DNA of 64,000 bases, taken from NCBI GenBank assembly GCA_949289155.1, contig CASEMX010000004.1:1-64000 (forward strand), read 5' to 3'. Below, one piece after another: positions 11,985-58,290 of this stretch; the first letter of the stretch is position 1, and every line of letters begins with the position of its first letter. A program made the position numbers and the translations under genes. Under the pieces are notes generated by a model. That model ran no database searches, was not told the DNA's origin, and was given only the letters and a program-made list of their open reading frames with translations. This DNA comes from an uncultured Parabacteroides sp. (GTDB lineage: Bacteria; Bacteroidota; Bacteroidia; Bacteroidales; Tannerellaceae).

Positions 11985-12418
11985 CTTCCGGAAACTCCGG
12001 AAGGAATGTCACCGGAAAAACCGTCTCTCCGGAGGCTCCGGAAGGAGTCATTTTCGGAAAATCTTTGTTCCCGGAAGCTCCGGAGGGTTTCAAATTGGGA
12101 AAAACAGAGGTTCCGGAGCCTCCGGAAGGTGTGTCGCTGGAAAAACTGTGCCTCCGGAGACTCCGGTGAGAGTCATTTTGAAAAGTTTGTCTTTCCGGAA
12201 TCTCCGGAAGGTGAAAAAATGCGAAAAACAGAGCTTCCGGAATCTCCGGAACGACGTTTTTTTGAGAATGACCCTTTCCGGAGCTTCCGGAACGGGCGTT
12301 TTTTGGAAAGTGAGGCTTTCCAGAGTCTCCGGAAGGGGAAAAATCGGGAAAAACAGAGCTTTCGGAGCCTCCGGAAGGGCAATCAGACCGGCGCGAATGC
12401 TTCCGGAGCCTCCGGAAA
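11985..12418. repeat. Array A: 11 palindromes with 41-42-bp period
   Basis: Eleven units of the palindrome CTTCCGGAGCCTCCGGAAG (with small changes) start at 11985, 12026, 12068, 12110, 12151, 12192, 12234, 12275, 12317, 12359 and 12400. Steps are 41 or 42 bases, mean 41.5. Spacers are similar but not identical and usually contain A4-A6 or T4-T7 tracts. Degenerate half-units occur at 11930-11950. Several frames stay open through the array on both strands because the unit lacks stops, but none resembles a protein. It lies between rsmH and topA. Confidence 0.95.
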
Positions 12419-12458
12419 AAGTGGCGCGCTATTTGCATTGGCAAGGGCTACCGTCTGT

Positions 12459-14804
12459 TTATTTCTTTTTCGCGGTGGAGGCGGTGCGTTTCTTTTTGGC
12501 AGGTTTCTCCTCCGTTTTTTTAATGATATCCATACATTCCTCTAATGTCATTTCGGCAGGCGTATGGCCACTCTTCGGGATTTTATAATTCGTTCCCTTA
12601 TAAGCGATATAGGGGCCATAGCGTCCGTTCAGAATCTCCAGTTCCGGTTCCTCATCGAACTTCTTGATGAAGCGCTGTTCATCTTTTTCCCGTTTCTGCT
12701 GAATCAGTTCGATGGCCTCGTCCAAAGTAATCGAAATCGGATTGAGGTTTTTCGGAATCGAGACGAATTTCCCGTCATGGCGAATGAAAGGACCGAAGCG
12801 TCCGACGGCAGCGACGACCGTTTTCCCTTCATATTCCCCTAAGGTACGGGGCAAATCGAACAACTTTAACGCCTCTTCCAATGTAATCGTATCGATGGAT
12901 TGTCCTTTCATCAGCGTAGCGAATTGCGGTTTCTCATCGTCTCCCGCCTTCGAGTCGCCAATTTGCACCATCGAGCCGAACTTTCCGAGCTTCACAAAGA
13001 CCGGTTTGCCGCTTTTCGGGTCTGTTCCCAGCAGACGTTCGCCCACTTTGTGTTCCGTGCGGAGCGTGGTTGCCTCCTCAACGATTGGGTGGAATATTTT
13101 GTAGAAATGGTCGATAACCTTTGTCCAATCCGCTTCCCCTTCTGCGATGGCATCGAATTCTTTTTCCACATTGGCTGTGAAATTGTAATCCATCACCAAT
13201 GGGAAATAGGCCATCAGGAAATCATTCACGACCGCGCCGATGTCGGTAGGGACCAGCTTGTTCCGGTCGGCTCCGGTGATTTCGGACTTCTGGCTCTCCT
13301 TAATCCCTTTGCTGTTTAGGGTAATGACCGTAAACGAACGGGTAGTTCCCTCTTTATCCCCTTTGACGACATATCCGCGATTCTGAATCGTCTGGATAGT
13401 CGGTGCATAAGTAGATGGACGCCCGATACCCAATTCTTCCAGCCGGCGTACTAAGCTTGCTTCTGTGTATCGTGGCGGGCGAAGAGTGAATCGTTCCGTT
13501 GCCGTAATCTCTTGCATTTGCAGCACCTCATTCAGTTCCACGCGCGGAAGCAAGCCGTTTTCCTGTTCCTTCTCGTTCTCGTCATCCGTACTCTCGTGAT
13601 ATACCTGTAAGAACCCGTCGAATACGACAACCTCGCCAGTTGCCACGAATTTTTCGCTTACCCCTCCGATAGAAACGGAGATAGTCGTGCGTTCCAACTC
13701 GGCATCCGCCATCTGGCAGGCAATAGTCCGTTTGCGAATCAGGTCATACAGGCGTTTTTCCTGCTCCGTTCCTTTGATTTCTGCATTGGCGATGTAGGTC
13801 GGACGGATAGCTTCGTGCGCCTCTTGCGCCCCCTTGCTCTTGGTATGGTATCTACGGAATTTATAATACTTTTCGCCGAATGTAGAAAGGATAGTTTCTT
13901 TTGCTGTGCCCAATGCCAAGTCGCTCAAGTTGAACGAGTCGGTACGCATGTAAGTAATTAATCCGGACTCATACAGTTTTTGGGCGAGCACCATCGTCTG
14001 CGTTACGGAAAAGCCTAATTTCCGTGCCGCTTCCTGCTGCAACGTAGAGGTAGTGAACGGCGGCGCCGGCGATTTCCGTACCGGTTTGCGGCTGATATCT
14101 TCTATGGTAAACGTCGCATTGCGGCATATTTCCAAGAAGTCATGCACCTCTTCCGCTGTTTTGAAACGTCGGTTCAATTCCGCTTTCAGGAGCGTCGTTC
14201 CATCCGGCAAGAGAAAATTGGCAACCACCCGGAAAGAAGCTTCGGGGACGAAGTCGTTGATTTCGCGCTCCCGTTCTACAATCAGACGGACAGCGACCGA
14301 CTGTACACGTCCTGCCGAGAGCGCCGGTTTTACCTTCTTCCAAAGGATAGGAGAGAGCTGGAACCCGACGATGCGGTCCAACACACGACGTGCTTGTTGG
14401 GCATTTACCAGATTCATATCGATGGCACGCGGTGTTTCGATAGCATGCAGGATGGCCGTCTTGGTAATTTCGTGGAAAACGATGCGGCGCGTGGACTCAG
14501 GCTTCAGTTTCAGGACTTCAGACAAGTGCCAAGAAATAGCTTCTCCTTCGCGGTCTTCATCGGATGCCAACCAAATGACTTCGGATGCTTTGGCTTCGGA
14601 TTTCAATTCGGTGACTAATTTTTTCTTGTCAGCCGGGATTTCATATTGCGGCGCATAATTATGTTCGATATCGATGCTGAATTCTTTTGTTTTCAGGTCG
14701 CGAATATGTCCGTAACTTGACAATACTTTGAAATCTTTCCCTAAGAACTTTTCAATCGTCTTTGCTTTTGCCGGAGATTCCACTATTACCAGATTCTTTT
14801 GCAT
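12459..14804 (-). CDS. topA: TopA, DNA topoisomerase I
   Basis: Type IA topoisomerase relaxing negative supercoils. N-terminal Toprim domain begins LVIVESPAKAKTIEKFLG, with the acidic motif SDEDREGE (81-88). The catalytic tyrosine sits in ITYMRTDS at Tyr285. 781 residues. The C-terminus lacks the cysteine zinc ribbons of the E. coli enzyme and instead has GRFGPFIRHDGKF and GRYGPYIAYKGT repeats (Toprim-C-like) and a Lys-rich tail. Monocistronic on the minus strand, preceded by a good TACATTTG promoter and followed by array A. Confidence 0.96.
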   Translation of the reverse strand: MQKNLVIVESPAKAKTIEKFLGKDFKVLSSYGHIRDLKTKEFSIDIEHNYAPQYEIPADKKKLVTELKSEAKASEVIWLASDEDREGEAISWHLSEVLKLKPESTRRIVFHEITKTAILHAIETPRAIDMNLVNAQQARRVLDRIVGFQLSPILWKKVKPALSAGRVQSVAVRLIVEREREINDFVPEASFRVVANFLLPDGTTLLKAELNRRFKTAEEVHDFLEICRNATFTIEDISRKPVRKSPAPPFTTSTLQQEAARKLGFSVTQTMVLAQKLYESGLITYMRTDSFNLSDLALGTAKETILSTFGEKYYKFRRYHTKSKGAQEAHEAIRPTYIANAEIKGTEQEKRLYDLIRKRTIACQMADAELERTTISVSIGGVSEKFVATGEVVVFDGFLQVYHESTDDENEKEQENGLLPRVELNEVLQMQEITATERFTLRPPRYTEASLVRRLEELGIGRPSTYAPTIQTIQNRGYVVKGDKEGTTRSFTVITLNSKGIKESQKSEITGADRNKLVPTDIGAVVNDFLMAYFPLVMDYNFTANVEKEFDAIAEGEADWTKVIDHFYKIFHPIVEEATTLRTEHKVGERLLGTDPKSGKPVFVKLGKFGSMVQIGDSKAGDDEKPQFATLMKGQSIDTITLEEALKLFDLPRTLGEYEGKTVVAAVGRFGPFIRHDGKFVSIPKNLNPISITLDEAIELIQQKREKDEQRFIKKFDEEPELEILNGRYGPYIAYKGTNYKIPKSGHTPAEMTLEECMDIIKKTEEKPAKKKRTASTAKKK

Positions 14805-14836
14805 AAGTAATTCTATTTCTAATTGGAAATCGGCTG

Positions 14837-14868
14837 CAAATGTACGAGATAATCTTTAAAATATCCAA
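14837..14868 (-). promoter_or_regulatory. Putative topA promoter
   Basis: Minus strand TTG (14866-14868), about 21 bases, then TACATTTG (14837-14844), an exact TAnnTTTG box 33 bases upstream of the topA ATG. Confidence 0.6.
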
Positions 14869-14887
14869 CAGGAATCTTTTCTTTTCC

Positions 14888-14895
14888 TATATTTG
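14888..14895 (+). promoter_or_regulatory. -7 box upstream of the TPR gene
   Basis: TATATTTG fits TAnnTTTG and lies 19 bases before the ATG at 14915. No clear -33 box is visible. Divergent from the topA promoter. Confidence 0.5.
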
Positions 14896-14914
14896 TACAG
14901 AAATAAAGGAAATT

Positions 14915-15178
14915 ATGGACGAAATAAAGCATTTAATTTACGAAGGAAAGCTGGATGAGGCGATTGCCCGGCTGACCGATTATTTAGAAAAGCATCCTGA
15001 TTCGGATGAGGCTTATTATTTGTTAGGCAACGCATGGCGGAAAAAGGGGAATAACCGTTTGGCTTTGAACAATTATCTGGAAGCGATTCATCTGAATCCG
15101 GAGAGTCCCGCGCAGAAAGCCCACGATATGCTTATGGACATCCTCGATTTTTATTATAAAGATATGTATAACCAATAA
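14915..15178 (+). CDS. Small TPR-repeat protein
   Basis: 87 residues containing about two tetratricopeptide repeats (LDEAIARLTDYLEKHPDSDE then AYYLLGNAWRKKGNNRLALN, continuing NYLEAIHLNPES). Such repeats mediate protein-protein contacts, and no specific partner can be read from the sequence. ATG 14915 is chosen because it follows AAGGAAATT and a -7 box; an upstream in-frame ATG at 14840 lies before that promoter. Thirty-three bases separate it from the MBL hydrolase gene, so the two are probably cotranscribed. Confidence 0.8.
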   Translation: MDEIKHLIYEGKLDEAIARLTDYLEKHPDSDEAYYLLGNAWRKKGNNRLALNNYLEAIHLNPESPAQKAHDMLMDILDFYYKDMYNQ

Positions 15179-15211
15179 ATAATAGATGGGAGCAATCTCC
15201 CGACCCAGCGT

Positions 15212-16066: not shown

Positions 16067-16198
16067 GGCGAGTCGGGCAAATAGCTCAAAGGGCACAATT
16101 ATTGGTCCTTTTGTGGAATTTTGCAAGGGATGTTTGGTAAGCATTCCCATTTTTAATATCTTGGCACGCAGTTTCCGTTTCATGAGAAACACTTATTT

Positions 16199-21563: not shown

Positions 21564-21680
21564 AAATAAATTTGCGAAACCGAGAAATCAGGCTGCGGAA
21601 ATATCCTGCGCCCTACGGCTCTTTCATTTAAAACAGCTTTAATAATCCTCAAACGGCTCCGTATAGAAGTTCTCATTTCC

Positions 21681-21849
21681 CTATCGTAGAACCTGACAAG
21701 TGCATACGAAGAGTTCGACAAGTCTCCCTCGTAGCGACCGGAAAGTCTCCCTCGTAGCGAGGTCGGTCGCTACGATATAGAGAGGTCAGTCGCTACGATA
21801 TGCGCTTGTTGGTCGCTACGATATAGACTTTTCAGGTTCTACGATATGC
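21681..21849. repeat. Array E: eight 22-23-bp units arranged as one large inverted repeat
   Basis: Four units containing TCGTAGCGACC or variants (starting about 21681, 21703, 21726, 21749) face inverted copies ending about 21780, 21803, 21825 and 21847. The centre is CGTAGCGA-GGTCGG-TCGCTACG. Outer ends also match (ATCGTAGAACCTG against CAGGTTCTACGAT). The whole can fold into one long hairpin or cruciform. It fills most of the gap between mutS (starts 21527) and the SulP gene (ends 21915), both on the minus strand. Confidence 0.85.
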
Positions 21850-21914
21850 AGTTTTTGAATGCTTAGGGAGGAATATAAAAACTGCTTACGAAGCTTTGTG
21901 TCCTAATTCCTCTG

Positions 21915-28317: not shown

Positions 28318-28751
28318 AGCTACTGCGCCGCGCAGTAGCTTGGATTTTGGCAGAAAAAAGCTTCTGAGCGGCTCAGAAGCTGTGTCGGCAGAAAAACAGG
28401 GTTTCTGAGTCACTCAGAAGTTATGTTGTCGAAAAAATGGTGCTTCTGAGTCACTCGGAAGGAATGGTTTTTAAAAGGATAGTGCTTCTGAGTCGCTCAG
28501 AAAGGGTGGTTTTTAAAATGCAGTGCTTCCGAGTCACTCAGAAGGAGGTGGTTTTTAAAATACACTGCTTCTGAGTCACTCAGAAAGGCTTCTGTTTAAA
28601 AAAATAGGGCTTCCGAGTCACTCAGAAGAGGTAGTTTTTAAAATACATAGCTTCTGAGTCACTCAGAAGGAGAATTTTTCTCCGGACATAGGTTCTGAGT
28701 CACTCAGAAATAGTAATTTTGAGGAGTCAAGGCTTCTGAGTCACTCGGAAG
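28318..28751. repeat. Array B: 11 palindromes with 41-42-bp period
   Basis: The first unit (28318-28340) is a different palindrome, AGCTACTGCG...CGCAGTAGCT, close to the array C motif. Ten units of GCTTCTGAGTCACTCAGAAG and variants start at 28360, 28401, 28442, 28484, 28525, 28567, 28609, 28650, 28691 and 28732, steps 41-42, mean 41.3. Spacers usually carry GTTTTTAAAA or an A-run in the middle. It lies between the helicase gene and a GLUG surface protein, both on the plus strand. Confidence 0.95.
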
Positions 28752-33503: not shown

Positions 33504-33615
33504 TAAATAAAAAGAAAATAATGGCGTAGGCTGCCGGATTTAGTTGGATAAAAAGTTTGTATGGCGTCATTAACTGAACTTTTTTCTCGGCAGGAAATAA
33601 ACTTTTTGTCGGCAG

Positions 33616-33666
33616 GTTTTCAACTTATATTGGGATGTTTTCAACTTTCTGTTGAATGTTTTCAAC
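33616..33666 (+). repeat. Three GTTTTCAAC repeats spaced exactly 21 bp
   Basis: GTTTTCAAC occurs at 33616-33624, 33637-33645 and 33658-33666. The middle copy also forms the palindrome TTCAACTTTCTGTTGAA. They end 30 bases before the -7 box of the GH3-family gene, in position for an operator. Confidence 0.6.
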
Positions 33667-43220: not shown

Positions 43221-44228
43221 ATGAAACGGGTCTGGATGATAATATTGCCGGTGGTGTTGCTGTTCTTTCTGCTCTCTTGCCAGAAAACAGACGAATATAC
43301 GGTGGATGCGCGCGAGAATTTTGAGGCATTATGGAAAATATTGGACGAAAATTATTGCTTCTTTTCCTATAAAGAGGTGGATTGGGATGAGGTGCACGAC
43401 CGGTATTCGGCGCAAATTATGGATACGATGAACCAATACGCGCTGTTCGATGTCTTGGCGGATATGTTGGCCGAACTGAAAGACGGGCATACGAACCTCT
43501 ATTCCAGCTTCGATGTGGCGCGTTATTGGGATTGGTATCAGGATTATCCTCCTAATTTCTATGAAGAGTTGAATGAGAAATATCTGGGGAAGGATTATAA
43601 AATAGCTGGTGGATTGAAATACCGGAAGATGGCGAACGATTCCATTGGTTATGTGCGCTATTCCAGCTTTTCCAGTGGCTTGGGCGAGAGCAATCTGGAC
43701 TATATGTTTTATTATTTCCGCGATTGCAAGGGCTTGATTATCGATATCCGGAACAATGGCGGAGGCGCGCTGACCTATTCCGAACGTTTTGCGTCGCGCT
43801 TCATCGAGGAAAAGACCTTGGTCGGGTATGTCCAATATAAACAGGGCAAGGGGCATGATGATTTTTCCGAGCCCTATCCGATTGAATTGGCTCCGTCGGC
43901 TTATATCCGCTGGTTGCGTCCGGTGATTGTCCTTACGAACCGCCATTGTTATAGCGCCGCGAATGATTTTGTCCAGAAGATGCGTACTTTCCCTCAGGTC
44001 CTTATCTTGGGCGACCGTACCGGCGGCGGGAGCGGATTCCCTTTTACCTCCGAACTACCCAACGGCTGGACGGTCCGTTTCTCCGCATGTCCGATGTTGG
44101 ATGCCGACAAACAGTTGACGGAATTCGGAATCGACCCGGATGTCTCGGTCGCTATTTCTGAAGAGGATTTATTGGAGGGAATAGATACGATAATCGAGGA
44201 GGCTATCCGATTATTGATGGAAAACTAA
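43221..44228 (+). CDS. S41-family peptidase lipoprotein
   Basis: 335 residues. Lipoprotein signal with lipobox LLSC (Cys about 20), then an S41 (tail-specific/C-terminal processing) protease domain: LKDGHTNLY, YVRYSSFSSG, LIIDIRNNGGGALTYSERFA, and the nucleophile Ser in NRHCYSAANDFV, with GDRTGGGSGFPF downstream. No PDZ domain is evident. Predicted periplasmic or outer-membrane-anchored protease. Eleven bases after the DUF3316 gene, so the parC-DUF3316-S41 genes form one transcript. Confidence 0.9.
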   Translation: MKRVWMIILPVVLLFFLLSCQKTDEYTVDARENFEALWKILDENYCFFSYKEVDWDEVHDRYSAQIMDTMNQYALFDVLADMLAELKDGHTNLYSSFDVARYWDWYQDYPPNFYEELNEKYLGKDYKIAGGLKYRKMANDSIGYVRYSSFSSGLGESNLDYMFYYFRDCKGLIIDIRNNGGGALTYSERFASRFIEEKTLVGYVQYKQGKGHDDFSEPYPIELAPSAYIRWLRPVIVLTNRHCYSAANDFVQKMRTFPQVLILGDRTGGGSGFPFTSELPNGWTVRFSACPMLDADKQLTEFGIDPDVSVAISEEDLLEGIDTIIEEAIRLLMEN

Positions 44229-44258: not shown

Positions 44259-44490
44259 GTGGGAAATCATTTCCGAAATCTCGGAAATATAATAAAAGTT
44301 TTTTGGAATTATTTCTGCTAACGTTTTTTTATAATCAAAATGTTTTGAAAGCATTTCCGCAATCGTTTTCGTTAATAAAAATATTTTGGAAGCATTTCTC
44401 CATACGTTTTTTCACAATAAAACTATTTTGATTGTATTTCTCCAACCATTTTAATCATCTAAAACGATTTTGGGGCTATTTCTGAGGTCT
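44259..44490. repeat. Array D: six AT-rich units with 41-42-bp period
   Basis: Units resembling TTTTGGAAGCATTTCTCC, followed by about 22 bases containing ACGTTTTTT and AATAAAA, start at 44259, 44301, 44343, 44384, 44426 and 44468 (steps 42, 42, 41, 42, 42). Short dyads such as CAAAATGTTTTG span the unit junctions. It lies between the convergent S41 and sppA genes, just left of their terminator. Confidence 0.88.
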
Positions 44491-44560: not shown

Positions 44561-46330
44561 TTATAAAGCTTGCATTGTATAAGGCATCCGGGCTTGGACT
44601 CCGGTGTTGGTTTTCATTTCTTGGATGGTTGAATAGATTTTGAATTCATCTCCCAAGATAGACTTGACTACCGAGAGTTTGGCTTCGCCTAAAGCCTTCT
44701 CCATATACTTCGTAAAGAAGTCTTTTTCGCTGTTTGCCTTCGTTACCGAATAGTCCGTGATTCCTGCCAAGGCAGCCGCCTCTTCGATGGCAACATCCAT
44801 ACCGCCGATTTTGTCCACCAATCCGCGAGCCAGCGCCTGCTCACCGGTCCAGACACGTCCCTGACCGATGTGGTCGATAGAATCTTTGCTCATACCTCTT
44901 CCGTCCGAGCAGCGCGTCAGGAACAAATCGTAGGTCATTTCAACGCCACGCTGGATTAATGCCTTCTCATCATCGCGCATTGGCCGGGTCATATCCCCTA
45001 AGTCGGCATAAGTATTGGTTTTGACGATGTCCGTCTTTACTCCTAACAAATCTTTTGTTCCGGACATGTTCGGAACCACGCCGAATACGCCAATAGAACC
45101 GGTCAATGTTGTTTTCTCAGCCACAATTTTATTCGCAGCACATGAGATATAATAACCGCCCGATGCCGCATAATCTCCCATCGATACGACAATCGGTTTC
45201 TTCTCTTTCAATTCAGTTACCGCTTTCCAGATTTGTTCAGAGATATAAGCGCTGCCGCCCGGCGAATTTACGCGGAATACCACCGCCTTGACCTTTTCGT
45301 CGCCGGCCAATTTGCGCAGTTCGTCCGCCATATCCTCCGAAATAATAGAAGCTTGGGAACCCATCAAAGAGTTGTCGGCTTCCTGAATGGAACCCTCGGC
45401 ATACAGCACGGCAATCTTGTCCTCTTTCTCTTTTTTATCGGATTTGACCGCCAACATATTCTTGACGCTTGCCGTAACCATTTTCTTATCTACTTCCTGT
45501 CCTGCCATACGTTTCACACAGTCTTCCGCCTCTTTCCGATAACGCAGTCCATCGACCAATTTATAATCGACCAACGTCTGTGCCTCGCCCATAGCCAGCC
45601 CTTCATTCAGGAAGCGCTCCATATCTTGCTGGGATATTTCCCGGGAAGCGCAGATGCCTCCGGTCATATTTCCCCAAATGCTACCAAGGAAGGAGGTAAG
45701 CTGTTCGCGGTTCGCGTCACTGAATTTATCCATGAAATAGGGCTCGACGGCGCTTTTGTAGGTTCCCACTTTGAAAATGTAGTATTCGATACCCAATTTG
45801 GCAGCAAAGTCTTTGATGAAAATGCCTTGGGATGCCAAACCGACCAGTCCGATTCCGCCTTGCGGATTGACAAATACCGAATCGGCTACGCTTGCCAAGT
45901 AATAACACCCTTGCGAATACATATCGGAATAGGACACGATGAATTTCCCGCTCGTTTTGAAGTCCTCTAATTCCCGCCGAATCGCTTCGAAGCTGGCAAA
46001 TCCGCCGCTCATGCCGGCCGCATCGATGTAAATACCCTTTATCTTCGGATTTGCTTTAGCCGCACGGATGGCTTTTACTACGTCGCGCAACGCATACGAC
46101 TCGTCATCGCCACCCATTAAGCTGCCGAAGGGATTTTCCTGTGTCTGGTCAGTCAGGCTTCCCTTCAAACTTAGCTTTAATACCGAATTGTCTTTCGGTT
46201 TGAATTCAGAACTTGAGCTGCCAGAAGCGGCAATGCCCATAAGTATCGCAAAGCCGACGAACATGAGCACGCCGATTGCGATCAATACCCCCAACACGGA
46301 GGCGAACATGGTCTTGAAAAATTGTTTCAT
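44561..46330 (-). CDS. sppA: SppA, signal peptide peptidase (67K type)
   Basis: 589 residues, inner-membrane S49 protease degrading cleaved signal peptides. One N-terminal membrane anchor (residues 10-34). Two tandem S49 domains as in E. coli SppA. The catalytic Lys is in VGTYKSAVEPYF (first domain), the nucleophile Ser in GDYAASGGYYIS (second domain), and SPGGSAYISEQIW precedes it. All key residues look intact. Followed by the terminator at 44516-44556; DUF2461 gene upstream, 21 bases away. Confidence 0.94.
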   Translation of the reverse strand: MKQFFKTMFASVLGVLIAIGVLMFVGFAILMGIAASGSSSSEFKPKDNSVLKLSLKGSLTDQTQENPFGSLMGGDDESYALRDVVKAIRAAKANPKIKGIYIDAAGMSGGFASFEAIRRELEDFKTSGKFIVSYSDMYSQGCYYLASVADSVFVNPQGGIGLVGLASQGIFIKDFAAKLGIEYYIFKVGTYKSAVEPYFMDKFSDANREQLTSFLGSIWGNMTGGICASREISQQDMERFLNEGLAMGEAQTLVDYKLVDGLRYRKEAEDCVKRMAGQEVDKKMVTASVKNMLAVKSDKKEKEDKIAVLYAEGSIQEADNSLMGSQASIISEDMADELRKLAGDEKVKAVVFRVNSPGGSAYISEQIWKAVTELKEKKPIVVSMGDYAASGGYYISCAANKIVAEKTTLTGSIGVFGVVPNMSGTKDLLGVKTDIVKTNTYADLGDMTRPMRDDEKALIQRGVEMTYDLFLTRCSDGRGMSKDSIDHIGQGRVWTGEQALARGLVDKIGGMDVAIEEAAALAGITDYSVTKANSEKDFFTKYMEKALGEAKLSVVKSILGDEFKIYSTIQEMKTNTGVQARMPYTMQAL

Positions 46331-49562: not shown

Positions 49563-51554
49563 TTAGTTCCTAACCTTAACCCGCTGCTCGCCTATACATA
49601 TTATATAGATACCTCTTGGCAGGTCGTAGCGTTGCAATCCCACTTGCGTTTCGTTCTTCAGAACTGCGCCGCTGATGGAGAAGATTTGCACTTGCTCCTG
49701 CGTTGGGGTCTGCACGTAGATGCTGCCGTCTTTGGAATATACCTTCACGCCTTCAAGTTCCTCCATTCCGGTCGGGGTTTCTTCTTCCTCCTCTACTACT
49801 CCATCCACTGTGATATAGATATCCGTGTAGATATTCTTGACTTCATAGATTCCCTCGTCGTTGGGTTCGATGATGTCTGTTGTTCCGAATAGGCTGCGTT
49901 TTACTTTTACCGTCATGTTTTCGTCCGTGTATCCTTCGGCTATGTCGATGGTGAAGGTCATGCTTTGCCCTTCCCGTACCACCGTGCTGCTGGCCTCTAC
50001 CGTTACGCCCTTACATTCCTCTACCACTATATTATAGTATTCCGGATAGTCGGGGATGGTTGGGGTATCGGGTTCCTCCGGGTCTGTGGGTTCCTCGGGC
50101 TTGTCTTGGAGCGTACCTGTAATCGTTATGGGTGACGTTTCCGTGCCTTGGATGGTGTAGGGCAGTTCGGGGTTCCACACATAGATTTTGCCCTCCGGAG
50201 CGATGGCCTCTGCTGGTGCTTCGATTACGTCATTCTTATTGCCATATATTGTCTCTGTCTTTTCATTTCCATCCGAAGCAGTGTAGGTAAGTGTTACGGT
50301 ATATATCTTGCAGGCTTCACGTTCCTCCTCGCTCAGGCAGCTGAGGGGCACAGGGAAACTGTTTCCATCCAGCTTCTGCCCCCATGCGTCTCCGAGCAAA
50401 TGCGCTACCTCGCCACTGGCGTATTCTTTTTCAGTTTTCGACTTAACGTTCTCTTCTTGGTTATTATCATCATCACCAATACCCTTATCGCAACTACTAT
50501 CTAAATAGTAGCAGTTCGATACTTCATCATAATTATCCCCCACGATGCCGCCGACTTCAGCGTCATCACCTCCTGTCACCGTGCCGCTGTTGGAGCAGTT
50601 TGATACCGTGGCATAATAATTCCACCCCACGATGCCGCCGACACGAGCGTCATCACTTCCTGTCACCGTGCCGCTGTTGGAGCAGTTCGATACTTCATCA
50701 TAATTATCCCCCACGATGCCGCCGACACGAGCGTCATCACCTGTTCCTGTCACCGCCCCGCTGTTGGAGCAGTTCGATACTTCATCATAATTATCCCCCA
50801 CGATGCCGCCGACACCAGCGAATTCACCTGTTCCTGTCACCGTGCCATTGTTGGTGCAGTTCGATACTTCACCCTCATTATCCCCCACGATGCCGCCGAC
50901 AGCATAAGCATTATCACCTCCTGTCACCGTGCCACTGTTAGAGCAGTTCGATACCTCACTATTATAGCTATTCCCTACGATGCCGCCGACATAAGCCCGA
51001 TAATCTGTCCCCGTTACCGTACCGCTGTTAGAACAGTTCGATATCGTTCCAGCCTTATTATCCCCCACGATGCCGCCGACATAATCCGCCGCTTTAATGT
51101 AGCTGTCCGTCACGGAGAGGTTCTGTATTGTAGCGCCCTCGCCGTCAACGTAACCGAAGAGGCCTTGATAATCGCTATTGTTATTGATATAGATGCCGCT
51201 GATGGTGTGGTTTTGCCCGTCGAAAGTGCCTTTGAATTTATTTGTGTTGTTGCCTATCGCTGTCCATTGCTTGAAGTTCGAGCCATCACCGTTCAATTCT
51301 CCACTCTCAGTCAAAACATTTTCATTGAAGGTGATATTTTGTGTTAGTTTGATAGTCTTGCCCTCGAAAGTATTCCCATTGTTCACCAACTTCGCCAAGC
51401 CTGCTAATTCGGCAGCGGTGGAGATTTCAAATGAAGATTCCGAATCGTTATACCAAGTTATATCTGCCTCATCTATCCAATTCTTCGTCTGCCCCGCAGC
51501 AGGGAGGATGGTGCAGAGGGTTATAAATAGGAACAAAGTAAAAATCTTTCTCAT
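49563..51554 (-). CDS. Secreted GLUG-repeat protein with DNA-level tandem repeats
   Basis: 663 residues. Signal peptide MRKIFTLFLFITLCTILPAAG. Residues 130-330 hold seven GLUG-type repeats of about 28-29 residues, core VGGIVGDNYDEVSNCSNSG, several nearly identical at the DNA level and therefore prone to copy-number change. Then an Ig-like region, a Pro/Glu/Asp linker (DKPEEPTDPEEPDTPTIPDY), another beta domain, and a C-terminal sorting-like tail (LEGVKVYSKDGSIYVQTPT to RGIYIICIGEQRVKVRN) very close to that of the protein at 28818-30185. Predicted to be exported, perhaps by a type IX system (inference), with a surface or adhesive role. Confidence 0.87.
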   Translation of the reverse strand: MRKIFTLFLFITLCTILPAAGQTKNWIDEADITWYNDSESSFEISTAAELAGLAKLVNNGNTFEGKTIKLTQNITFNENVLTESGELNGDGSNFKQWTAIGNNTNKFKGTFDGQNHTISGIYINNNSDYQGLFGYVDGEGATIQNLSVTDSYIKAADYVGGIVGDNKAGTISNCSNSGTVTGTDYRAYVGGIVGNSYNSEVSNCSNSGTVTGGDNAYAVGGIVGDNEGEVSNCTNNGTVTGTGEFAGVGGIVGDNYDEVSNCSNSGAVTGTGDDARVGGIVGDNYDEVSNCSNSGTVTGSDDARVGGIVGWNYYATVSNCSNSGTVTGGDDAEVGGIVGDNYDEVSNCYYLDSSCDKGIGDDDNNQEENVKSKTEKEYASGEVAHLLGDAWGQKLDGNSFPVPLSCLSEEEREACKIYTVTLTYTASDGNEKTETIYGNKNDVIEAPAEAIAPEGKIYVWNPELPYTIQGTETSPITITGTLQDKPEEPTDPEEPDTPTIPDYPEYYNIVVEECKGVTVEASSTVVREGQSMTFTIDIAEGYTDENMTVKVKRSLFGTTDIIEPNDEGIYEVKNIYTDIYITVDGVVEEEEETPTGMEELEGVKVYSKDGSIYVQTPTQEQVQIFSISGAVLKNETQVGLQRYDLPRGIYIICIGEQRVKVRN

Positions 51555-52004: not shown

Positions 52005-52814
52005 TTATTCAACAGGCTCCTCCGGAGTCGGTTCCGGTTCATCGCCGCCCTCCTCGTGCGCCTTCTTCTGCGCCTCGCTCATTTTGAGCGTTGTCTTGTA
52101 GTTGCTGGTGACGGCATTCATTTCCTGCATCAGTTGCTTGACAAACGTCACGGTGTCCTCTTGGCCCGTCGTCAGCGAAGCGATGATACCGCTGGCGCGG
52201 ATAGCATCCTGAATTTCCACCAAGGTTTCATCCGCCAACTTGCGCAATTCGTTGGTCGTTATCTCCTGCTTACGCGCATACTTTGCCTGCACGCGCGCCG
52301 CCTTCGTCGCTGCAAACGCATTGTTTGCCGTCTCGAGGCTGGTCAGGATAGGCTCCAAGTTCAACGTCTTGACCGCTTCCGCATTCTCCTCCTTGCGCAG
52401 GTCCTCCAGCAGGCCGCGAATCGACGCCGTCTCCGCATCGTCCGGCAGGTCCTGAATACCCTTGTAGGGGCGAATCACGATGTCCAACAACTGTGCAGCC
52501 GCCTTGACCGCCGCATCCAACGCCACCAGACCGCTTGCTGCCAGCACGAACAACAACGACAACAGCCGGTCGCGCTCCGATTCCTGCGCCGTCGTCTCCT
52601 GCGTGTCGAGGCTCGCCTGCGCCACCTTGTTGCGGTCGTTCAGCTCATCCACATAGTTCTTATACTCCAACATTTTCGCCGCCGTGACATGCACCCGCTC
52701 TTCGAGCGTCCCCCGCGAGTCCAGCACCTTGTACTCGTCCGCGTGATATGCGGCGTGCAACGCGTTACTATACCGCGTCGAGTAGTTCCCTTCAAATAAT
52801 GGAAATCTTGCCAT
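52005..52814 (-). CDS. DUF6261-like helical protein
   Basis: 269 residues, almost entirely helical and Ala/Glu-rich. It begins MARFPLFEGNYSTRYSNALHAAYHADEYKVLD and resembles the DUF6261 proteins common in Parabacteroides-type genomes (recognised by overall pattern, so moderate certainty). No signal peptide. The C-terminal tail is Pro/Glu-rich (GGDEPEPTPEEPVE). Higher GC and simpler composition than its neighbours. Function unknown. Preceded by array C, with no strong promoter box visible. Confidence 0.7.
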   Translation of the reverse strand: MARFPLFEGNYSTRYSNALHAAYHADEYKVLDSRGTLEERVHVTAAKMLEYKNYVDELNDRNKVAQASLDTQETTAQESERDRLLSLLFVLAASGLVALDAAVKAAAQLLDIVIRPYKGIQDLPDDAETASIRGLLEDLRKEENAEAVKTLNLEPILTSLETANNAFAATKAARVQAKYARKQEITTNELRKLADETLVEIQDAIRASGIIASLTTGQEDTVTFVKQLMQEMNAVTSNYKTTLKMSEAQKKAHEEGGDEPEPTPEEPVE

Positions 52815-52886
52815 AATTCATTATCATTTAATTGTTAAAGATTCATCTTTTTACCTCTTCAGAGGCTTTGTTTTTCCCAATTTCGA

Positions 52887-53155
52887 GCTACTGTACACTA
52901 CGGTAGCCCTGTCTTTCCGAAAACCCTCCTACTGTACACTGCAGAAGCTCGGTTTTTCCGGCGACCCTTCTACTGCAGACTACAGTAGCTCTGTTTTTGC
53001 CCGATTCCGAGCTACTGTACACTACGGTAGCTCTGTCTTTCCAAAAACCTTTCTACCGTACACTGCAGAAGCCCTGTTTTCGCCCGATATCAAGCTGCCG
53101 TACACTACAGTAGCCCGGTTTTTCCGGCGACATAGCTACTGCAGACTACAGTAGC
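52887..53155. repeat. Array C: seven palindromes with 41-42-bp period
   Basis: Units of the type GCTACTG-N7-CGGTAGC start at 52887, 52928, 52969, 53011, 53052, 53094 and 53135 (steps 41, 41, 42, 41, 42, 41, mean 41.3). Each is followed by a 20-base spacer with CTGTTTTT or CGGTTTTT near its start. A shorter palindrome, ACCTCTTCAGAGGC at about 52852, lies at the place of a preceding unit. The array lies between the DUF6261 start and the terminator at 53165-53210. Confidence 0.95.
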
Positions 53156-53164
53156 TCCGAAACG

Positions 53165-53245: not shown

Positions 53246-53347
53246 TCAGCGAATTACCCCCCCCCCCACCATGCGCTCTATGCCTGTAACAGCCAAGCAG
53301 TTAGCTGCCGGGATAGATTCGGAAGTAGGATAATTTGCTGTTCTCAT
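53246..53347 (-). CDS. 33-residue small ORF ending in a G11 tract
   Basis: ATG 53347 starts a peptide MRTANYPTSESIPAANCLAV and continues TGIERMVGGGVIR to TGA at 53246. It has its own promoter (53370-53399) 23 bases upstream and its own terminator (53165-53210), so it is a free-standing transcript of about 200 nt. The final Gly codons come from an 11-base G run at 53257-53267; a change in run length would replace the C-terminus and extend the frame toward array C. No family recognised. Could also be a small RNA. Confidence 0.45.
   Translation of the reverse strand: MRTANYPTSESIPAANCLAVTGIERMVGGGVIR
53257..53267 (-). repeat. Homopolymeric G11 tract (C11 on plus)
   Basis: Eleven C residues on the plus strand. 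It lies in the last codons of the small ORF at 53246-53347. Length errors here would shift its reading frame. Confidence 0.8.
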
Positions 53348-53369
53348 GTTCTGTTTGTTTGATTTGCGC

Positions 53370-53399: not shown

Positions 53400-53419
53400 A
53401 ATTTTTGATGTTCTTTTTG

Positions 53420-54146: not shown

Positions 54147-54271
54147 CCAGAAAGTAGGGTCCTTTTGCAATAAGGCAAAAGAAAATTTGCGAATTGATGA
54201 AATTAGTCGTTATTTTGCAAAACAAGAACGTACAGGACCTTGTTTATTAATCATTATCAAGAATAATTTGC

Positions 54272-54568
54272 ATGGAGAAAGTCTTAAAGAAGAAATTAAT
54301 TATTTCCAAAAAAGGAAATCGATTCATCTTTTCTGATAAAAATACAGGAAAGCCTCTATTTCATGTAACAGATTCTCCGACCTATGCAGCATTTGATTTG
54401 GACAAACCTATTTTGTCAGGCGTGGGGAGCCTTTTCAATGTAGCGGGGAATTATTATTCTTTTCGGAAGTATTTAGCCAATAATGACGATAGCAAAGCAA
54501 TGGCTTCTGATTGGGAAAAAGTAGGCATGGCTTTCTTGGATGCATTATCTGTTTCTAAAAATAAATAA
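54272..54568 (+). CDS. Hypothetical 98-residue protein
   Basis: Starts MEKVLKKKLIISKKGNRF, then FSDKNTGKPLFHVTDSP. Basic N-terminus, no signal peptide or membrane span, a probable small alpha/beta protein. Family not recognised. AT-richer than nearby genes. It is three bases upstream of the DUF2335 gene, so the two are an operon. It lies directly beside the foldback element, so the pair may be an accessory insertion (inference). Confidence 0.75.
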   Translation: MEKVLKKKLIISKKGNRFIFSDKNTGKPLFHVTDSPTYAAFDLDKPILSGVGSLFNVAGNYYSFRKYLANNDDSKAMASDWEKVGMAFLDALSVSKNK

Positions 54569-54570
54569 CT

Positions 54571-55122
54571 ATGGAAAATGAACAATCAAACGAACAAGAG
54601 GCAAAATTAACTCAGCAAGAGCATACGGTGTTAAACAATTTAAAGGAAGAAGGCATTGAGATTTCCACTAACGACGTTTCGGAAGTTCTTGAATCATTGC
54701 CTGAAGATAAACGCCGTGTCATCGTCGGAGCATTATATGCCGTCGAAGCCTCTTCGTCTTTCAGAGGGCCTTTGCCTCCTCCTGAAATATTAAAGGAATA
54801 CGAAAGCATTTTGCCCGGAGCATCCGAACGTATTTTAACGATGGCCGAAAAACAACAAGACCATAGAATAAGCATAGAAAAAACAATTGTTGACAGACAA
54901 ACCAAACAAAGTGGACACGGACAGACTTGGGGTGGCATTTTAACCATACTGCTTTGTTTCATCACTGTTTTCTTAGGCTATTACGGGCATGATGTCTTAG
55001 CAGGATTCATTGGAACAACAACAATTATTGGATTAGCTACCATTTTTGTTTTGCATAAAGCTCCTCCAAAACCAAACAAAGAGAAAGATGAGGTAAATGA
55101 GGAAGAAACAACGAGCGATTGA
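54571..55122 (+). CDS. DUF2335 family membrane protein
   Basis: 183 residues. An N-terminal soluble region is followed by the DUF2335 signature FRGPLPPPEILKEYESILPG and ERILTMAEKQQDHR, then two C-terminal hydrophobic spans (TILLCFITVFLGYYG and FIGTTTIIGLATIFVL) and a short charged tail. Known only as a predicted membrane protein family, often in accessory regions. Function unknown. Cotranscribed with the 98-residue protein gene. Confidence 0.85.
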   Translation: MENEQSNEQEAKLTQQEHTVLNNLKEEGIEISTNDVSEVLESLPEDKRRVIVGALYAVEASSSFRGPLPPPEILKEYESILPGASERILTMAEKQQDHRISIEKTIVDRQTKQSGHGQTWGGILTILLCFITVFLGYYGHDVLAGFIGTTTIIGLATIFVLHKAPPKPNKEKDEVNEEETTSD

Positions 55123-55208
55123 TGCAAACTTGCCTGACATCGAAGAAATGCAGATAAAAGAGAATTATGATAACTATCTTTTGTCTGCATTTCTTTTATC
55201 ATATAGCC

Positions 55209-55811
55209 TCACTTTCCATTAGCCTCCTCCTCGGTTTTTATCTGTTCCAAGATTTCATTGATTCGGCGTTTGGTGTTCCGGTTATGGATGATTCCGCCAA
55301 TCAGTCCGCATATTCCGCCGATGATTCCGCCGGTCAAGAGGGGCATCCGCATATCGCTTTCTACGAAGCGTAAGGATTCAATGACGAACCATGTGAACCA
55401 GCAGCAGAGGAAGGGGATGCTGAACTTGAGCCAATTGGCATTCGATTGTTTCAGGCGCAGCAGTTTCCAGCTTACTTCCAACAGATTTTTCTCCAACAGG
55501 TCTCTTGGCTGGATGAATTGCTGTTGGTAAAGCATGTATCCGATGGCAATCAAAAAGAATAACGAGGTAACAATCCGGTACGATAACGAAAAGCCGGCCA
55601 TCGAGAATGCCCAATAACAATAGGGGATACCGAACAACGCTACTCCGCCGATGATGAACAAATCCTTTCGGAGCTTTCCTGCCTTCTCGCTCATGGTGCG
55701 GCGTACCAATCGGTCGTTGATAATCTTTTGACGGTCTAATTTCGACTTCAACAAATCCATTTGCTGCTTCATTTCATCCAGTTCCAAGTCTCTATCCAAA
55801 TTCTTTTCCAT
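55209..55811 (-). CDS. Membrane protein paired with an ECF sigma factor
   Basis: 200 residues. An N-terminal coiled-coil-like cytoplasmic region (ELDEMKQQMDLLKSKLDRQ) is followed by about four membrane spans and a basic C-terminal helix. It lies 15 bases downstream of an ECF sigma gene, in the place where anti-sigma factors usually sit. No zinc-binding anti-sigma motif (HxxxCxxC) is visible, so the role as regulator is a positional inference. Family not recognised. Confidence 0.75.
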   Translation of the reverse strand: MEKNLDRDLELDEMKQQMDLLKSKLDRQKIINDRLVRRTMSEKAGKLRKDLFIIGGVALFGIPYCYWAFSMAGFSLSYRIVTSLFFLIAIGYMLYQQQFIQPRDLLEKNLLEVSWKLLRLKQSNANWLKFSIPFLCCWFTWFVIESLRFVESDMRMPLLTGGIIGGICGLIGGIIHNRNTKRRINEILEQIKTEEEANGK

Positions 55812-55826
55812 AATTTCCTGTAGTTT

Positions 55827-56306
55827 TTAATCGTTCGACATATTCTTCAATTCAATCCGGATGCGGAAGAGGCGCACTGAAACATTCTTTGTGCTGATGC
55901 CTACAATCGCCCCGATTTCCTCATAACTGATACCCTCCAGCCAGAGCAATACAATCGCCCGGTCCAAAGGTTTCAGCCGGTGGATGCGCCGGTAGAGTTG
56001 CCGGATTTGTTTCGACTCGTCATCCTTGTCGTGAAACAAATCGATGTCCATGCTCAGCGGGACCGTCTTGTGCCTTTTCTTTTTCCGCTCCGAAGAGATG
56101 CAGGTATTGAAACTGACCTTCCAAATCCACGTGTCGATACCGCTGAGCCTCTTGAACGAGGAGTAGCCTTTCCAGAGATTAATCAGCACCTCTTGGAAAA
56201 GGTCGTTCACCTCGTCCGAATCGTTGGAGAACATAAAGCATACCGTATAAATGGTATTTTTATGCTCCTGAACCATTCTTTCGAAATCTGTCTTTACTGT
56301 GTCCAT
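55827..56306 (-). CDS. ECF-type RNA polymerase sigma factor
   Basis: 159 residues. Sigma-70 region 2 is seen in NDLFQEVLINLWKGYSSF and IDTWIWKVSFNTCISSERKKK, and region 4 in HRLKPLDRAIVLLWLEGISY followed by EEIGAIVGISTKNVSVRLFRIR (helix-turn-helix). No region 1.1 or 3, as expected for ECF sigmas. Probably activated by an envelope signal through the membrane protein encoded just downstream. Target promoters are not evident. The 254-base gap upstream of its start contains only the pepD terminator. Confidence 0.93.
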   Translation of the reverse strand: MDTVKTDFERMVQEHKNTIYTVCFMFSNDSDEVNDLFQEVLINLWKGYSSFKRLSGIDTWIWKVSFNTCISSERKKKRHKTVPLSMDIDLFHDKDDESKQIRQLYRRIHRLKPLDRAIVLLWLEGISYEEIGAIVGISTKNVSVRLFRIRIELKNMSND

Positions 56307-56478
56307 ACATTGTTTGCTTGTTTCTGCACGTTAGACGCCCGGAGGGGTTGGAAAACTACAGGAAAATGAAAAAATTTCCCTTTTCTTTTTTCAAAGGGAA
56401 GGGGAGAGGCTCCGCGAAAATAACCGATATTTCTTCGAATAAAAAGAGAACATTGTGCCAGCAGCGAGAATAGTAAAC

Positions 56479-56535
56479 AAGAAACACGGAGCGATTAATT
56501 TTTAATTGTTAATTATTAATTGCTCCGTGTTTCTT
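56479..56535 (-). terminator. Terminator of pepD
   Basis: AAGAAACACGGAGC (56479-56492) pairs perfectly with GCTCCGTGTTTCTT (56522-56535) across an AT-rich loop, 26 bases downstream of the pepD stop. Confidence 0.75.
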
Positions 56536-56560
56536 ATTTATTCATTCGCTTCTCGCCTCC

Positions 56561-58015
56561 TCAGATTTTCTCCAGCGTACGCTTAATCAGTTCCCACGTA
56601 TGCTGTACGGACGCGATGCGTACCCGTTCGTCGGGCGAGTGCGGATGCTCCAAGTCCGGACCAATCGATATCATGTCCATATCGGGATAGACGCCTTGGA
56701 TGATTCCGCATTCCAGACCGGCGTGCATCACTTTCACTTCCGGTTCTACGCCGAACAGTTCGTGATACGTCTGTTTCATTAAGCCGAGAATCGGCGAATC
56801 TATATTGGGTTGCCAGCCGTTGTAGCCGCCCGTCTCTTCCACCTTTGCGCCCGCCATGGCAAAGATGCTCTCCAGACTGGAGCAGAGCGCGTCTTTCCGG
56901 CTTTCGGATGAGCTGCGAATCAGCAGCTTTATCTCTATCAATTCGTTCGACGTCTTGACGATGGCGAGGTTCGACGAGGATTCGACCGTGCCGGGAAAGT
57001 CGTGGAGCATCGTAATCACTCCGTTCTGGCATCCTTCGATGGCATTAATCAAATCATCCTGTATCTCTTCGGGGATTAATGTTGCCGGCAGTTCTGCCAT
57101 TTCAGCCGAGAAGCAGATATTGTCCTCGATTCCGGCATATTCCTCGCGGTACATGTCCTGATAATCCGAAACCAGCTCCCACAACGCCTCGACATTGTCG
57201 CCCGGAATCGTGACCACTGCCTCCGCTTCGCGCGGGATGGCGTTCCGCAAGTTTCCGCCCTCCACTGCCGAGAGGCGGGCGCCATAATCGCAGACTGCCT
57301 CTTTCAGGAAGCGGAACATCAGTTTGTTGGCATTGGCGCGTCCCAGATGGATATCCACGCCCGAATGTCCGCCCTTCAATCCCGTCAGGCGCAGCCGTAC
57401 TGCCACGTCCCCTTCCGGGATATAGGTATCTTCTTTAAATTGGAACGTGACGTTCATATCCGCACCTCCTGCGCAACCCACGAACAGCTCTCCCTCTTTT
57501 TCCGAATCGCAATTCAGCAGGATATCCCCTTTCAGGAAGCCGGGCTTCAGGCTGAACGCACCGTCCATCCCTTCCTCTTCATCAATCGTAAACAATGCCT
57601 CGACGGGACCATGCTCCAGCGAATTATCTGCCAGCACCGCCATCGCCAATGCCGCGCCGATGCCATTGTCCGCGCCCAGCGTCGTCTCGCGCGCCTTTAC
57701 CCATTCCCCGTCGATATACGCGTCAATCGGGTCAGTCAGGAAATCATGTTTCACGGAAGAATTCTTTTGGGGGACCATATCCAGATGCGCCTGCAGCGTC
57801 ACCGTCTTGCGGTTCTCCCTGCCCGGCGTCGCCGGCTTCCGGATTAATACATTTCCGGCTGCGTCCTGCCGGGTTTCCAATCCCAAGTTCTTACCGAACT
57901 CGGTTACAAAACGTGCCACCGCAGCTGTATGTCCTGTCGGACGCGGAATTTGGGTTAGTTCATAAAAATAGTTCCACACCGCTTGCGGCAATAGATTTTT
58001 GATTTCAGCTGACAT
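56561..58015 (-). CDS. pepD: PepD, aminoacyl-histidine dipeptidase (M20C)
   Basis: 484 residues, cytosolic zinc dipeptidase cleaving Xaa-His and related dipeptides. The metal site is seen in LQAHLDMVPQK (His and catalytic Asp), ADNGIGAA, the catalytic-base motif DEEEGMDGAF, and C-terminal MHAGLECGI. The inserted lid domain carries GGHSGVDIHLGRANANK. Length and order match PepD. Start is the ATG at 58015. Monocistronic between its terminator and array F. Confidence 0.95.
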   Translation of the reverse strand: MSAEIKNLLPQAVWNYFYELTQIPRPTGHTAAVARFVTEFGKNLGLETRQDAAGNVLIRKPATPGRENRKTVTLQAHLDMVPQKNSSVKHDFLTDPIDAYIDGEWVKARETTLGADNGIGAALAMAVLADNSLEHGPVEALFTIDEEEGMDGAFSLKPGFLKGDILLNCDSEKEGELFVGCAGGADMNVTFQFKEDTYIPEGDVAVRLRLTGLKGGHSGVDIHLGRANANKLMFRFLKEAVCDYGARLSAVEGGNLRNAIPREAEAVVTIPGDNVEALWELVSDYQDMYREEYAGIEDNICFSAEMAELPATLIPEEIQDDLINAIEGCQNGVITMLHDFPGTVESSSNLAIVKTSNELIEIKLLIRSSSESRKDALCSSLESIFAMAGAKVEETGGYNGWQPNIDSPILGLMKQTYHELFGVEPEVKVMHAGLECGIIQGVYPDMDMISIGPDLEHPHSPDERVRIASVQHTWELIKRTLEKI

Positions 58016-58076
58016 AATTTCTTCTATTAAATGGTTGTTTTATGGCAAAAATGAAGCATAACGGACCAAAAACGGA

Positions 58077-58290
58077 GCTGGAAAGTCTCTCCCGCGCGCC
58101 GGAGACGTTTTCCCAAAGCTGGAAAGTCTCTCCCGCGCGCCGGAGACATTTTTCCCAAAGCTGGAAAGTCTCTCCTGCGCGCCGGGGACGTTTTCCCAAA
58201 GCTGGAAAGTCTCTCCCGCGCGCCGGAGACGTTTTCCCAAGGCTGGAAAGTCTCTCCCGCGCGAGCCCGGCAAGGTTTCCAGAGCCGTTT
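58077..58290. repeat. Array F: five near-identical 41-42-bp units
   Basis: Units starting GCTGGAAAGTCTCTCCCGCG begin at 58077, 58118, 58160, 58201 and 58242 (steps 41, 42, 41, 41). Each contains an imperfect 22-bp palindrome, GTCTC...GAGAC with a GCGCGC centre, then CGTTTTCCCAAA. These are the most uniform units of the five 41-bp arrays. The last unit diverges and, with TTTCCAGAGCC then GTTTTT, makes a terminator-like hairpin on the plus strand (58241-58292). It lies between the flippase and pepD genes, both minus strand. Confidence 0.95.

Follow-up and report, generated by a model that had tools for sequence, protein, structure and literature searches.

Several Parabacteroides species carry a class of tandem arrays built from a 41-42-bp quasi-palindromic unit, in which two dyads typically sit some 20.8 bp from each other. 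On its outer flanks each dyad has pyrimidines 5' and purines 3', the purine/pyrimidine (R/Y) blocks follow a 10.4-bp phase, and base identity is nearly free both within and between species. The arrays were first noticed in the window, a stretch of 64,000 nucleotides from an uncultured Parabacteroides sp., for which a preliminary description proposed that selection or copying is directed at length and symmetry, irrespective of sequence. The present analysis supports that proposal and replicates it in other species.

All five arrays of the window were found near the positions first given, none with an assigned strand, and their fixed period was borne out, with main self-match lags of 41/42, 83 and 124/125. 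Array A (11984..12418, about 10 units of 41-42 bp) lies in the gap between rsmH (10850-11779, minus strand) and topA (12459-14804, minus strand). Array B (28318..28751, about 10 units) separates a DEAD-box helicase gene from a GLUG-motif gene; its main dyad is CTTCTGAG TCA CTCAGAAG, and its A/T spacer holds a second dyad half a unit off the main one. Array C (52886..53157, about 6.5 units) has the main dyad GCTACTGTA CAC TACAGTAGC and lies upstream of a DUF6261 gene (52005-52814, minus strand). Array D (44259..44490) is AT-rich (GC 0.26) and sits between convergent genes for an S41 peptidase (43221-44228, plus strand) and an S49 peptidase (44561-46330, minus strand). Array F (58076..58290, about 5 units, 93% matches) is bordered by an M20 peptidase gene (56561-58015, minus strand) and a lysylphosphatidylglycerol-synthase-like gene (58311-59303, minus strand).

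Clear palindromes had been described in A, B, C and F. With perfect arms in TRF units measured against shuffles, the palindromes are strong in B (p 0.007) and C (p 0.002), but the units of A (p 0.13, covering 12244-12338 only), D (p 0.147) and F (p 0.40) score no better than shuffled ones. The arrays had also been called unrelated, which holds for A, C, D and F, each a singleton among 37 sampled loci, but not for B, whose unit belongs to a six-locus family. With one centre base left free, the exact B core occurs at 8 places in its own genome and in none of 24 other genomes (15 of the same genus, 9 of other families). An A/T run in the spacer did not prove to be a common rule; more general are the second, half-unit dyad and the helical-phase R/Y blocks.

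A scan of 464 kb of the Parabacteroides genome, with loci counted per four-lag bin, extended the excess at lags 40-43 well beyond the window. There were 37 loci in this bin and the neighbouring bins were almost empty (1 locus at lags 28-31, 2 at 32-35, 1 at 36-39, 6 at 44-47, 3 at 48-51 and 4 at 52-55); a second peak of 15 loci lay at lags 20-23. Called ORFs overlap at least half of 4 of the 37 loci. One, L020 8388, is a low-complexity repeat within a 711-base gene and was dropped as coding; L013 13211, L013 18703 and L026 17855 were retained, their ORFs being judged over-extended or spurious. Coding repeats were rejected as a general source: neither 41 nor 125 is divisible by 3, and only this one locus was dropped. 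This leaves 36 intergenic arrays. Arrays occupy 12,950 of some 64,900 intergenic bases sampled in this genome, roughly a fifth. A second species, G009, has 36 arrays in 440 kb and none at lags 24-39 or 48-59. Unit similarity between the two species is barely above chance (mean 0.528, shuffled 0.500).

The unit of about 41.5 bp bears a dyad and spans about four helical turns, the fit being approximate since a period of 41 gives turns of 10.25 bp and a period of 42 turns of 10.5 bp. Clustering at 66% identity gave 29 unit families in the source genome (from 42 TRF arrays) and 31 in G009 (from 38). Dyads exceed those of shuffled units with z of 8.7 and 9.2 in these two sets, and 7.8 in 23 families pooled from other lineages after removal of units whose self-similarity at 21 bp exceeded 70%. 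An antipodal second dyad outscores the average of its own shuffled versions in 21 of the 29 families (p 1e-4) and 27 of the 31 (p 2e-5), as well as in 33 of the 42 source arrays with relatives kept (p 5e-6); in the pooled lineages it is not significant (12/23, p 0.12). R/Y Fourier power at n/4 (10.4 bp) reaches z of 10.5, 4.5 and 4.4 in the source genome, G009 and the other lineages respectively, and arrays of 21-22 or 23-24 bp show no such peak. The outer R/Y pattern, at -6 to -9 from the dyad, is equal in the source genome and G009; the inner patterns differ.

Main-dyad parity matches unit-length parity: odd units are odd-centred by 13 to 3 and even units even-centred by 19 to 4, with 4 ties (p 1.8e-4). 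The rule is weaker in G009 alone (4:3 and 13:5). Left out of this count were L049, L076, L093, L034 and those 21-bp arrays that had been read as 42; since L034 and L093 represent a single array, that array is wholly absent from it. Half-unit swaps, seen by eye in three arrays, preserve the spacing, and two units each recur inverted at a second locus. After removal of the duplicate loci L049, L076 and L093, compensatory double changes in the arrays were no more frequent than chance predicts (11 observed, null mean 9.7).

The preliminary description placed the arrays between genes, mostly at operon ends. They are intergenic, with 0 of 36 in G009 inside a called gene, and they lie nearer to stop codons (median 27 bp in the source genome, 46.5 bp in G009) than to start codons (121 and 111 bp); array C, however, is upstream of a minus-strand gene and not at a 3' end. 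Comparison of the same gaps in relatives, proposed at the outset, showed that the gap of array F is without an array in 29 of 29 relatives examined; F resembles extra DNA in a gap lacking such DNA elsewhere. Downstream of topA, no match at lags 40-43 was found in 68 loci scanned, some of them from one genome twice and two with fewer than 200 bases; in L038 and L063 the end of topA overlaps a weak match at lag 42 (67/120). Only in 2 of these 68 loci was rsmH found downstream of topA, at 2.8 kb. The gaps of B and D are not comparable because, among 29 relatives each, their own neighbour gene is never beside the query gene. A gene-pair comparison over the sampled stretches yielded only two informative gaps, and the alignment for one of them (L020 with L176) was excluded because its orientation was wrong. 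Arrays at one gap vary between species, and array-rich and array-poor species are interspersed within the genus, with 5 changes on the tree.

The explanation we favour, with a probability of about 0.4, is a DNA-level lattice of twofold-symmetric sites in a BIME-like position, which conserves length and symmetry rather than sequence. Phased protein-binding sites, one of three mechanisms first suggested, fit best. As to function, we infer that an array would act as double-stranded DNA, presenting twofold-symmetric sites every two turns on one helix face. The arrays would be bound cooperatively by a putative dimeric protein, architectural or DNA-bending, which recognises shape or symmetry, mainly just past stop codons, by analogy with the binding of gyrase and IHF by BIMEs. 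The spacing would be kept because off-phase units do not bind. Slippage or recombination would homogenise the units, half-units being exchanged as blocks. Because each array is quasi-palindromic it might extrude hairpins, and such arrays may perhaps be better tolerated where the SbcCD nuclease has been lost or altered. The prominence of lags 40-43 in two heavily sampled species favours the lattice, as do the dyad excess, the antipodal dyads, the R/Y phase, the outer R/Y pattern common to the source genome and G009, the parity rule, the half-unit swaps, the lack of a G-U preference in sense RNA, the absence of G009 arrays from called genes and the closeness to stop codons. Against it, the second dyad is not significant in the pooled lineages, compensatory changes stay at chance level, the inner R/Y patterns differ, the parity rule is weaker in G009, the helical fit is approximate and not followed by the 21-24-bp class, and array D has no clear dyad. 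The kept R/Y pattern could also stem from shared ancestry, transitions being the most frequent kind of mutation, and unit similarity between the two species is slightly above that of shuffles. The SbcCD component of the explanation is opposed by the 3 of 7 array-rich genomes that keep SbcCD, by the 2 of 19 array-poor genomes that lack it and by the phylogenetically independent pairs given below.

A selfish or neutral palindromic minisatellite is possible, if somewhat less probable. Here a replication or recombination process would make units of about 41.5 bp, one example being template switching at hairpins, a process that yields palindromes too. The arrays would spread and homogenise, accumulating in hosts whose hairpin repair is weak through SbcCD loss, and length would be set by the copying machine and not by function. 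The scatter of array-rich genomes over the genus, the differences between species at the same gap and the chance level of within-array covariation are all in its favour. So is the gene content of the hosts: SbcD and SbcC are both missing in array-rich G000, G045, G020 and G015, giving 4 of 7 rich against 2 of 19 poor genomes (Fisher one-sided p 0.028) in a table that omits G048, G052, G043, G049 and G051, where arrays were not sampled, and in which arrays scoring nearly equally at lag 20/21 are excluded from the counts. Yet array-rich G009, G003 and G010 retain SbcD, array-poor G001 and G023 are without it, and phylogenetically independent pairs give p 0.25. Loss of this hairpin nuclease is only suggestive of a partial link with the arrays, and was rejected as their sole cause. 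On its own, a minisatellite also leaves two features unaccounted for, the 10.4-bp phase of the R/Y blocks and the closeness to stop codons.

Units made by a dedicated enzyme, whose gene should track with the arrays, had also been proposed. Of the two candidate enzymes examined, IS200/Y1 transposases and reverse transcriptases, neither tracks the arrays. The Y1 transposase domain PF01797 has one match in the source genome and none in array-rich G003, G009, G010 and G015 (25 genomes searched, G020 and G045 not included). Both enzymes were rejected as makers, since several array-rich genomes contain no match to them.

Common descent with concerted evolution appears unlikely. One ancestral 41-42-bp family would have dispersed long ago and drifted in sequence, its length persisting because indels are rare. 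Families within a genome do share units and swapped half-units, and the slight residual similarity across species points the same way. P. gingivalis is a related Bacteroidales species, and its 41-nt repeats also speak for common descent. However, with similarity close to saturation, the adjacent lag bins hold almost nothing, and such divergence would be expected to have let indels spread the length. In the relatives scanned, moreover, the gaps orthologous to those of A and F yielded no array.

We consider it improbable that the arrays work in transcripts as tandem RNA hairpins, whether terminators, stabilisers or processed small RNAs, a role raised in the preliminary description that gained no support. 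They do tend to follow stop codons, and three-unit pieces of 4 of the 5 window arrays fold better than shuffles (single strand, DNA parameters), the exception being array D as single-stranded DNA (z +0.78). The expected sense-strand preference for G-U is nevertheless absent, imperfect pairs in codirectional gaps comprising 28 G-U and 45 A-C, and an RNA role would give no reason for R/Y blocks in helical phase. Known RNA families found no support either, with no Rfam match within the window at gathering score.

Slightly less probable still are internal repeats of MITEs moved by insertion-sequence transposases, like MITE464/PgRS and BrickBuilt of P. gingivalis: repeats of matching length in those elements, the two units found in opposite orientations and the appearance of array F as extra DNA would agree, but 150-bp flanks contained an IS5-type terminal repeat pattern at 0 of 72 arrays, the commonest 9-mer in the 72 source-array flanks occurred in 4 (shuffles 2-3), and array families differ in sequence.

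In these arrays a rule of length, symmetry and helical phase outlives near-complete sequence turnover. To our knowledge, bacterial repeat classes are defined by sequence. It is conceivable, though doubtful, that the arrays represent a bacterial satellite-DNA system set by geometry, in which helical spacing and twofold symmetry, with hardly any regard to sequence, are what the cell uses to recognise DNA, to maintain it and perhaps to copy it. Each locus and species would then have its own unit on a common 41-42-bp plan. Such a system would parallel satellites of nucleosome length, with a lattice of dimeric protein at two helical turns as its base. The arrays point to an unrecognised architectural protein, or to an unrecognised process that fixes repeat length. 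Since array-rich and array-poor species are closely related, the question can be tested directly.

Our search of the open-licence literature found no description of sequence-independent 41-42-bp arrays in Parabacteroides or Bacteroidales, but the initial view that no standard element class applies was too strong. BIMEs are extragenic, palindromic, regularly spaced, mosaic and species-specific, with binding of gyrase by BIME-2 and an interaction between IHF and the DNA between REPs (PMC2817692). The Parabacteroides arrays share the extragenic position, palindromic units and regular spacing. They differ in having no single REP sequence but dozens of unit families per sample (29 and 31, where REPs are one or few conserved sequences in more than 100 dispersed copies), in a unit length fixed across families, and in the absence of a cognate RAYT (Y1) transposase from the four array-rich genomes named above. 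PMC4596501 reports 41-nt internal tandem repeats for MITE464/PgRS and 23-nt repeats for BrickBuilt; these are likewise intergenic, with tandem units of 41 or 22/23 nt as in Parabacteroides. They are, in that account, single-sequence families with IS5-like terminal repeats, whereas the Parabacteroides arrays comprise many unrelated units and lack such ends, a GAGACnnTTnCA-like end being sought with one regular expression built from a table of that paper. CRISPR/spacer arrays have a comparable regular period and partly palindromic repeat, but were rejected as there is no invariant repeat with diverse spacers and whole units are alike within an array. With VNTRs and minisatellites the arrays share tandem, homogenised units; unlike these, they keep to one narrow length class and obey rules on dyads and helical phase, across loci and species whose sequences are unrelated.

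The five intergenic tandem arrays of the window, A (11984..12418), B (28318..28751), C (52886..53157), D (44259..44490) and F (58076..58290), are all real and lie where the preliminary description placed them, and the dominant self-match lags in each are 41/42, 83 and 124/125. The window comes from a Parabacteroides-like genome: the topA gene adjoining array A has 76-83% identity to topA of named Parabacteroides records, with P. faecalis the best match. The home genome of the window (G000; 2.88 Mb, 75 contigs) was sampled over 464 kb, comprising the window and 20 further stretches, and every locus matching at 64 or more of 120 positions was counted, in bins of 4 lags. Lags 40-43 yielded 37 loci, lags 20-23 yielded 15, lags 44-47 yielded 6, and the remaining bins 0-4 each, multiples at 80-87 and 120-127 excepted. 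A second, heavily sampled Parabacteroides species (G009) has 36 loci at lags 40-43 in 440 kb, 13 at 20-23, 5 at 44-47 and none in bins 24-39 and 48-59. The excess at lags 40-43 is present in both genomes; the preliminary description had suggested a genome-wide scan at lags 41-42.

One G000 locus (L020, 8388) was left out as coding, leaving 36; three others overlapping called ORFs were retained, as those ORFs were judged spurious or over-extended. These 36 arrays cover 12,950 bases, and the sampled intergenic DNA amounts to ~64,900 bases by a simple gene caller. None of the 36 G009 arrays is contained in a called gene. Arrays occupy codirectional, convergent and divergent gaps, at a median distance from a facing stop codon of 27 bp (G000) or 46.5 bp (G009) and from a facing start codon of 121 bp or 111 bp, respectively. 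Other repeats are also found. An 87-bp tandem repeat (50510-51081) lies within a long minus-strand ORF (49563-51554) and so gives a 29-residue protein repeat, a run of 11 C just past array C (53257-53267) is a possible slippage tract, a weak 21-bp-period repeat (TTTTCAAC) lies upstream of a GH3-family gene (33581-33666), and another stretch (L009, 8739-9546) holds 4.8 copies of a 167-bp tandem repeat with 94% matches.

The units of the arrays are dissimilar and nevertheless have length, dyads and purine/pyrimidine (R/Y) phase in common. Clustering at 66% identity gave 29 unit families from 42 TRF arrays in G000 and 31 from 38 in G009, and on average a G009 unit reaches a best similarity of 0.528 to the G000 units, versus 0.500 for shuffled units. 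The best one-unit lag is 40 in 2, 41 in 33 and 42 in 37 of 72 arrays, which were preselected by lag 40-43, so that the unbiased evidence on length is the bin counts. The mean best dyad exceeds shuffles with z of 8.7 (G000), 9.2 (G009) and 7.8 (23 families pooled from G045+G020, G003, G010 and G015), and with perfect arms only, 21 of 42 G000 units are above shuffles at p<0.05. A further dyad, offset by half a unit, is stronger than the shuffle mean in 21 of 29 G000 families (p 1e-4) and 27 of 31 G009 families (p 2e-5); in the pooled lineages it is so in 12 of 23, which is not significant (p 0.12). R/Y blocks recur with a quarter-unit period of 10.4 bp (z 10.5 in G000, 4.5 in G009, 4.4 in the pooled lineages). 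At positions -6 to -9 relative to the dyad, both G000 and G009 have pyrimidines, and closer to the centre their patterns are unlike. The dyad is mostly base-centred in units of odd length and mostly bond-centred where the length is even (p 1.8e-4; 43/45 families counted), a rule that is weaker in G009 alone. Arrays of 21-24 bp have dyads as well (z 9.7 and 6.0) and lack the 10.4-bp R/Y periodicity.

Turnover of sequence is extensive. The exact core of array B occurs at 8 places in G000 and in none of 24 further genomes, a set that includes 15 from the same genus. Two units were each seen in opposite orientation at two loci, and in three arrays, judged by eye, blocks of units exchange one half-unit hairpin for another with spacing kept. 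The two genes flanking array F are neighbours in every one of the 29 relatives examined, and in each of these the gap is without an array; aligned with 11 of them, array F appears as extra DNA. Of 38 genomes in the genus, 37 carry the gene used for this comparison. Next to topA, the divergent gap is 110 bp long in G000 and contains an array in G020.

Array-rich genomes carry 117 (G045), 82 (G009), 78 (G000), 62 (G003), 60 (G020), 44 (G010) and 25 (G015) arrays per Mb, and 19 array-poor species showed none in the 18-80 kb sampled from each. Mapped onto a tree built from four concatenated proteins, this distribution needs 5 changes. Array-poor does not mean array-free, since G011, G017 and G004 each have one lag-42 match (76, 77 and 67 of 120) outside those samples, and arrays in fragmented assemblies such as G044 may be hidden from the counts.

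SbcD (TIGR00619) is absent above cut-off from 8 of 38 genomes: array-rich G000, G045, G020 and G015 (an assembly only 76% complete), array-poor G001 and G023, and G048 and G052, which were not sampled for arrays. For SbcC (TIGR00618), scored on the best 15 candidates or fewer per genome (best 15 of 21 in G000), the matches listed for these eight are none or have E-values of 1e-9 to 1e-3 only; the pattern rests on E-values, as the curated cut-off is reached in no genome among the matches listed. SbcCD is absent from 4 of 7 array-rich versus 2 of 19 array-poor genomes (Fisher one-sided p 0.028), and among phylogenetically independent pairs 3 support the association, 0.2 oppose it and 1.8 show no difference (p 0.25, with pairs too few to reach 0.05). 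SbcCD cleaves DNA hairpins, so its loss would fit extruding palindromic arrays, and a link to tolerance of such arrays is suggestive. Within the genus these genes appear to have been lost several times, the tree requiring 6 changes, and G005, G009, G010, G043, G049 and G051 have a longer SbcC and a lower-scoring SbcD.

The arrays are most simply explained as a lattice of sites with twofold symmetry in double-stranded DNA, along which a putative shape-reading protein would bind, because length, symmetry and helical phase are kept across near-complete sequence turnover and there is no RNA signature. The main rival is that a mutational process may set unit length. Among mobile-element enzymes, a Y1 transposase is present in G000 and was not found in array-rich G003, G009, G010 or G015 (G020 and G045 were outside that search); reverse transcriptase was not found in G000, G003, G009, G010 or G015 and was found in G020 and G045. 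IS5-like ends were found at none of the 72 arrays. Separately, G019 has a reverse-transcriptase gene in at least 13 copies with identical scores, resembling a mobile intron, or an element of similar kind, that spread recently. The tandem hairpin RNA of the preliminary description is not borne out, as imperfect pairs on the sense strand of codirectional arrays comprise fewer G-U (28) than A-C (45; 35 other) and an RNA-level signal is absent. Within arrays, compensatory double changes do not rise above the null level (11 vs 9.7), so the symmetry shows when families are compared and does not show as covariation inside an array.

A general description of such arrays was not found in the open literature searched. 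BIMEs and RAYTs are described in PMC2817692. The portion of PMC4596501 consulted reports a repeat length of 23 nt for BrickBuilt and 41 nt for MITE464/PgRS, several repeats of 41, 23 and 22 nt in P. gingivalis W83, and no homology between 23- and 41-nt units; a fixed-length rule across unrelated units is not stated in that portion. Arrays of 22-bp period occur at Prevotella and Bacteroidaceae loci (L084, L088, L090, L091) and, being seen outside Parabacteroides, make the 21-24-bp class wider than the 41-42-bp class in our sample. The window itself holds a 23-bp-period array (21680-21860) whose halves are mutually inverted (TCGTAGCGACC / GGTCGCTACGA) and which is reminiscent of P. gingivalis BrickBuilt.
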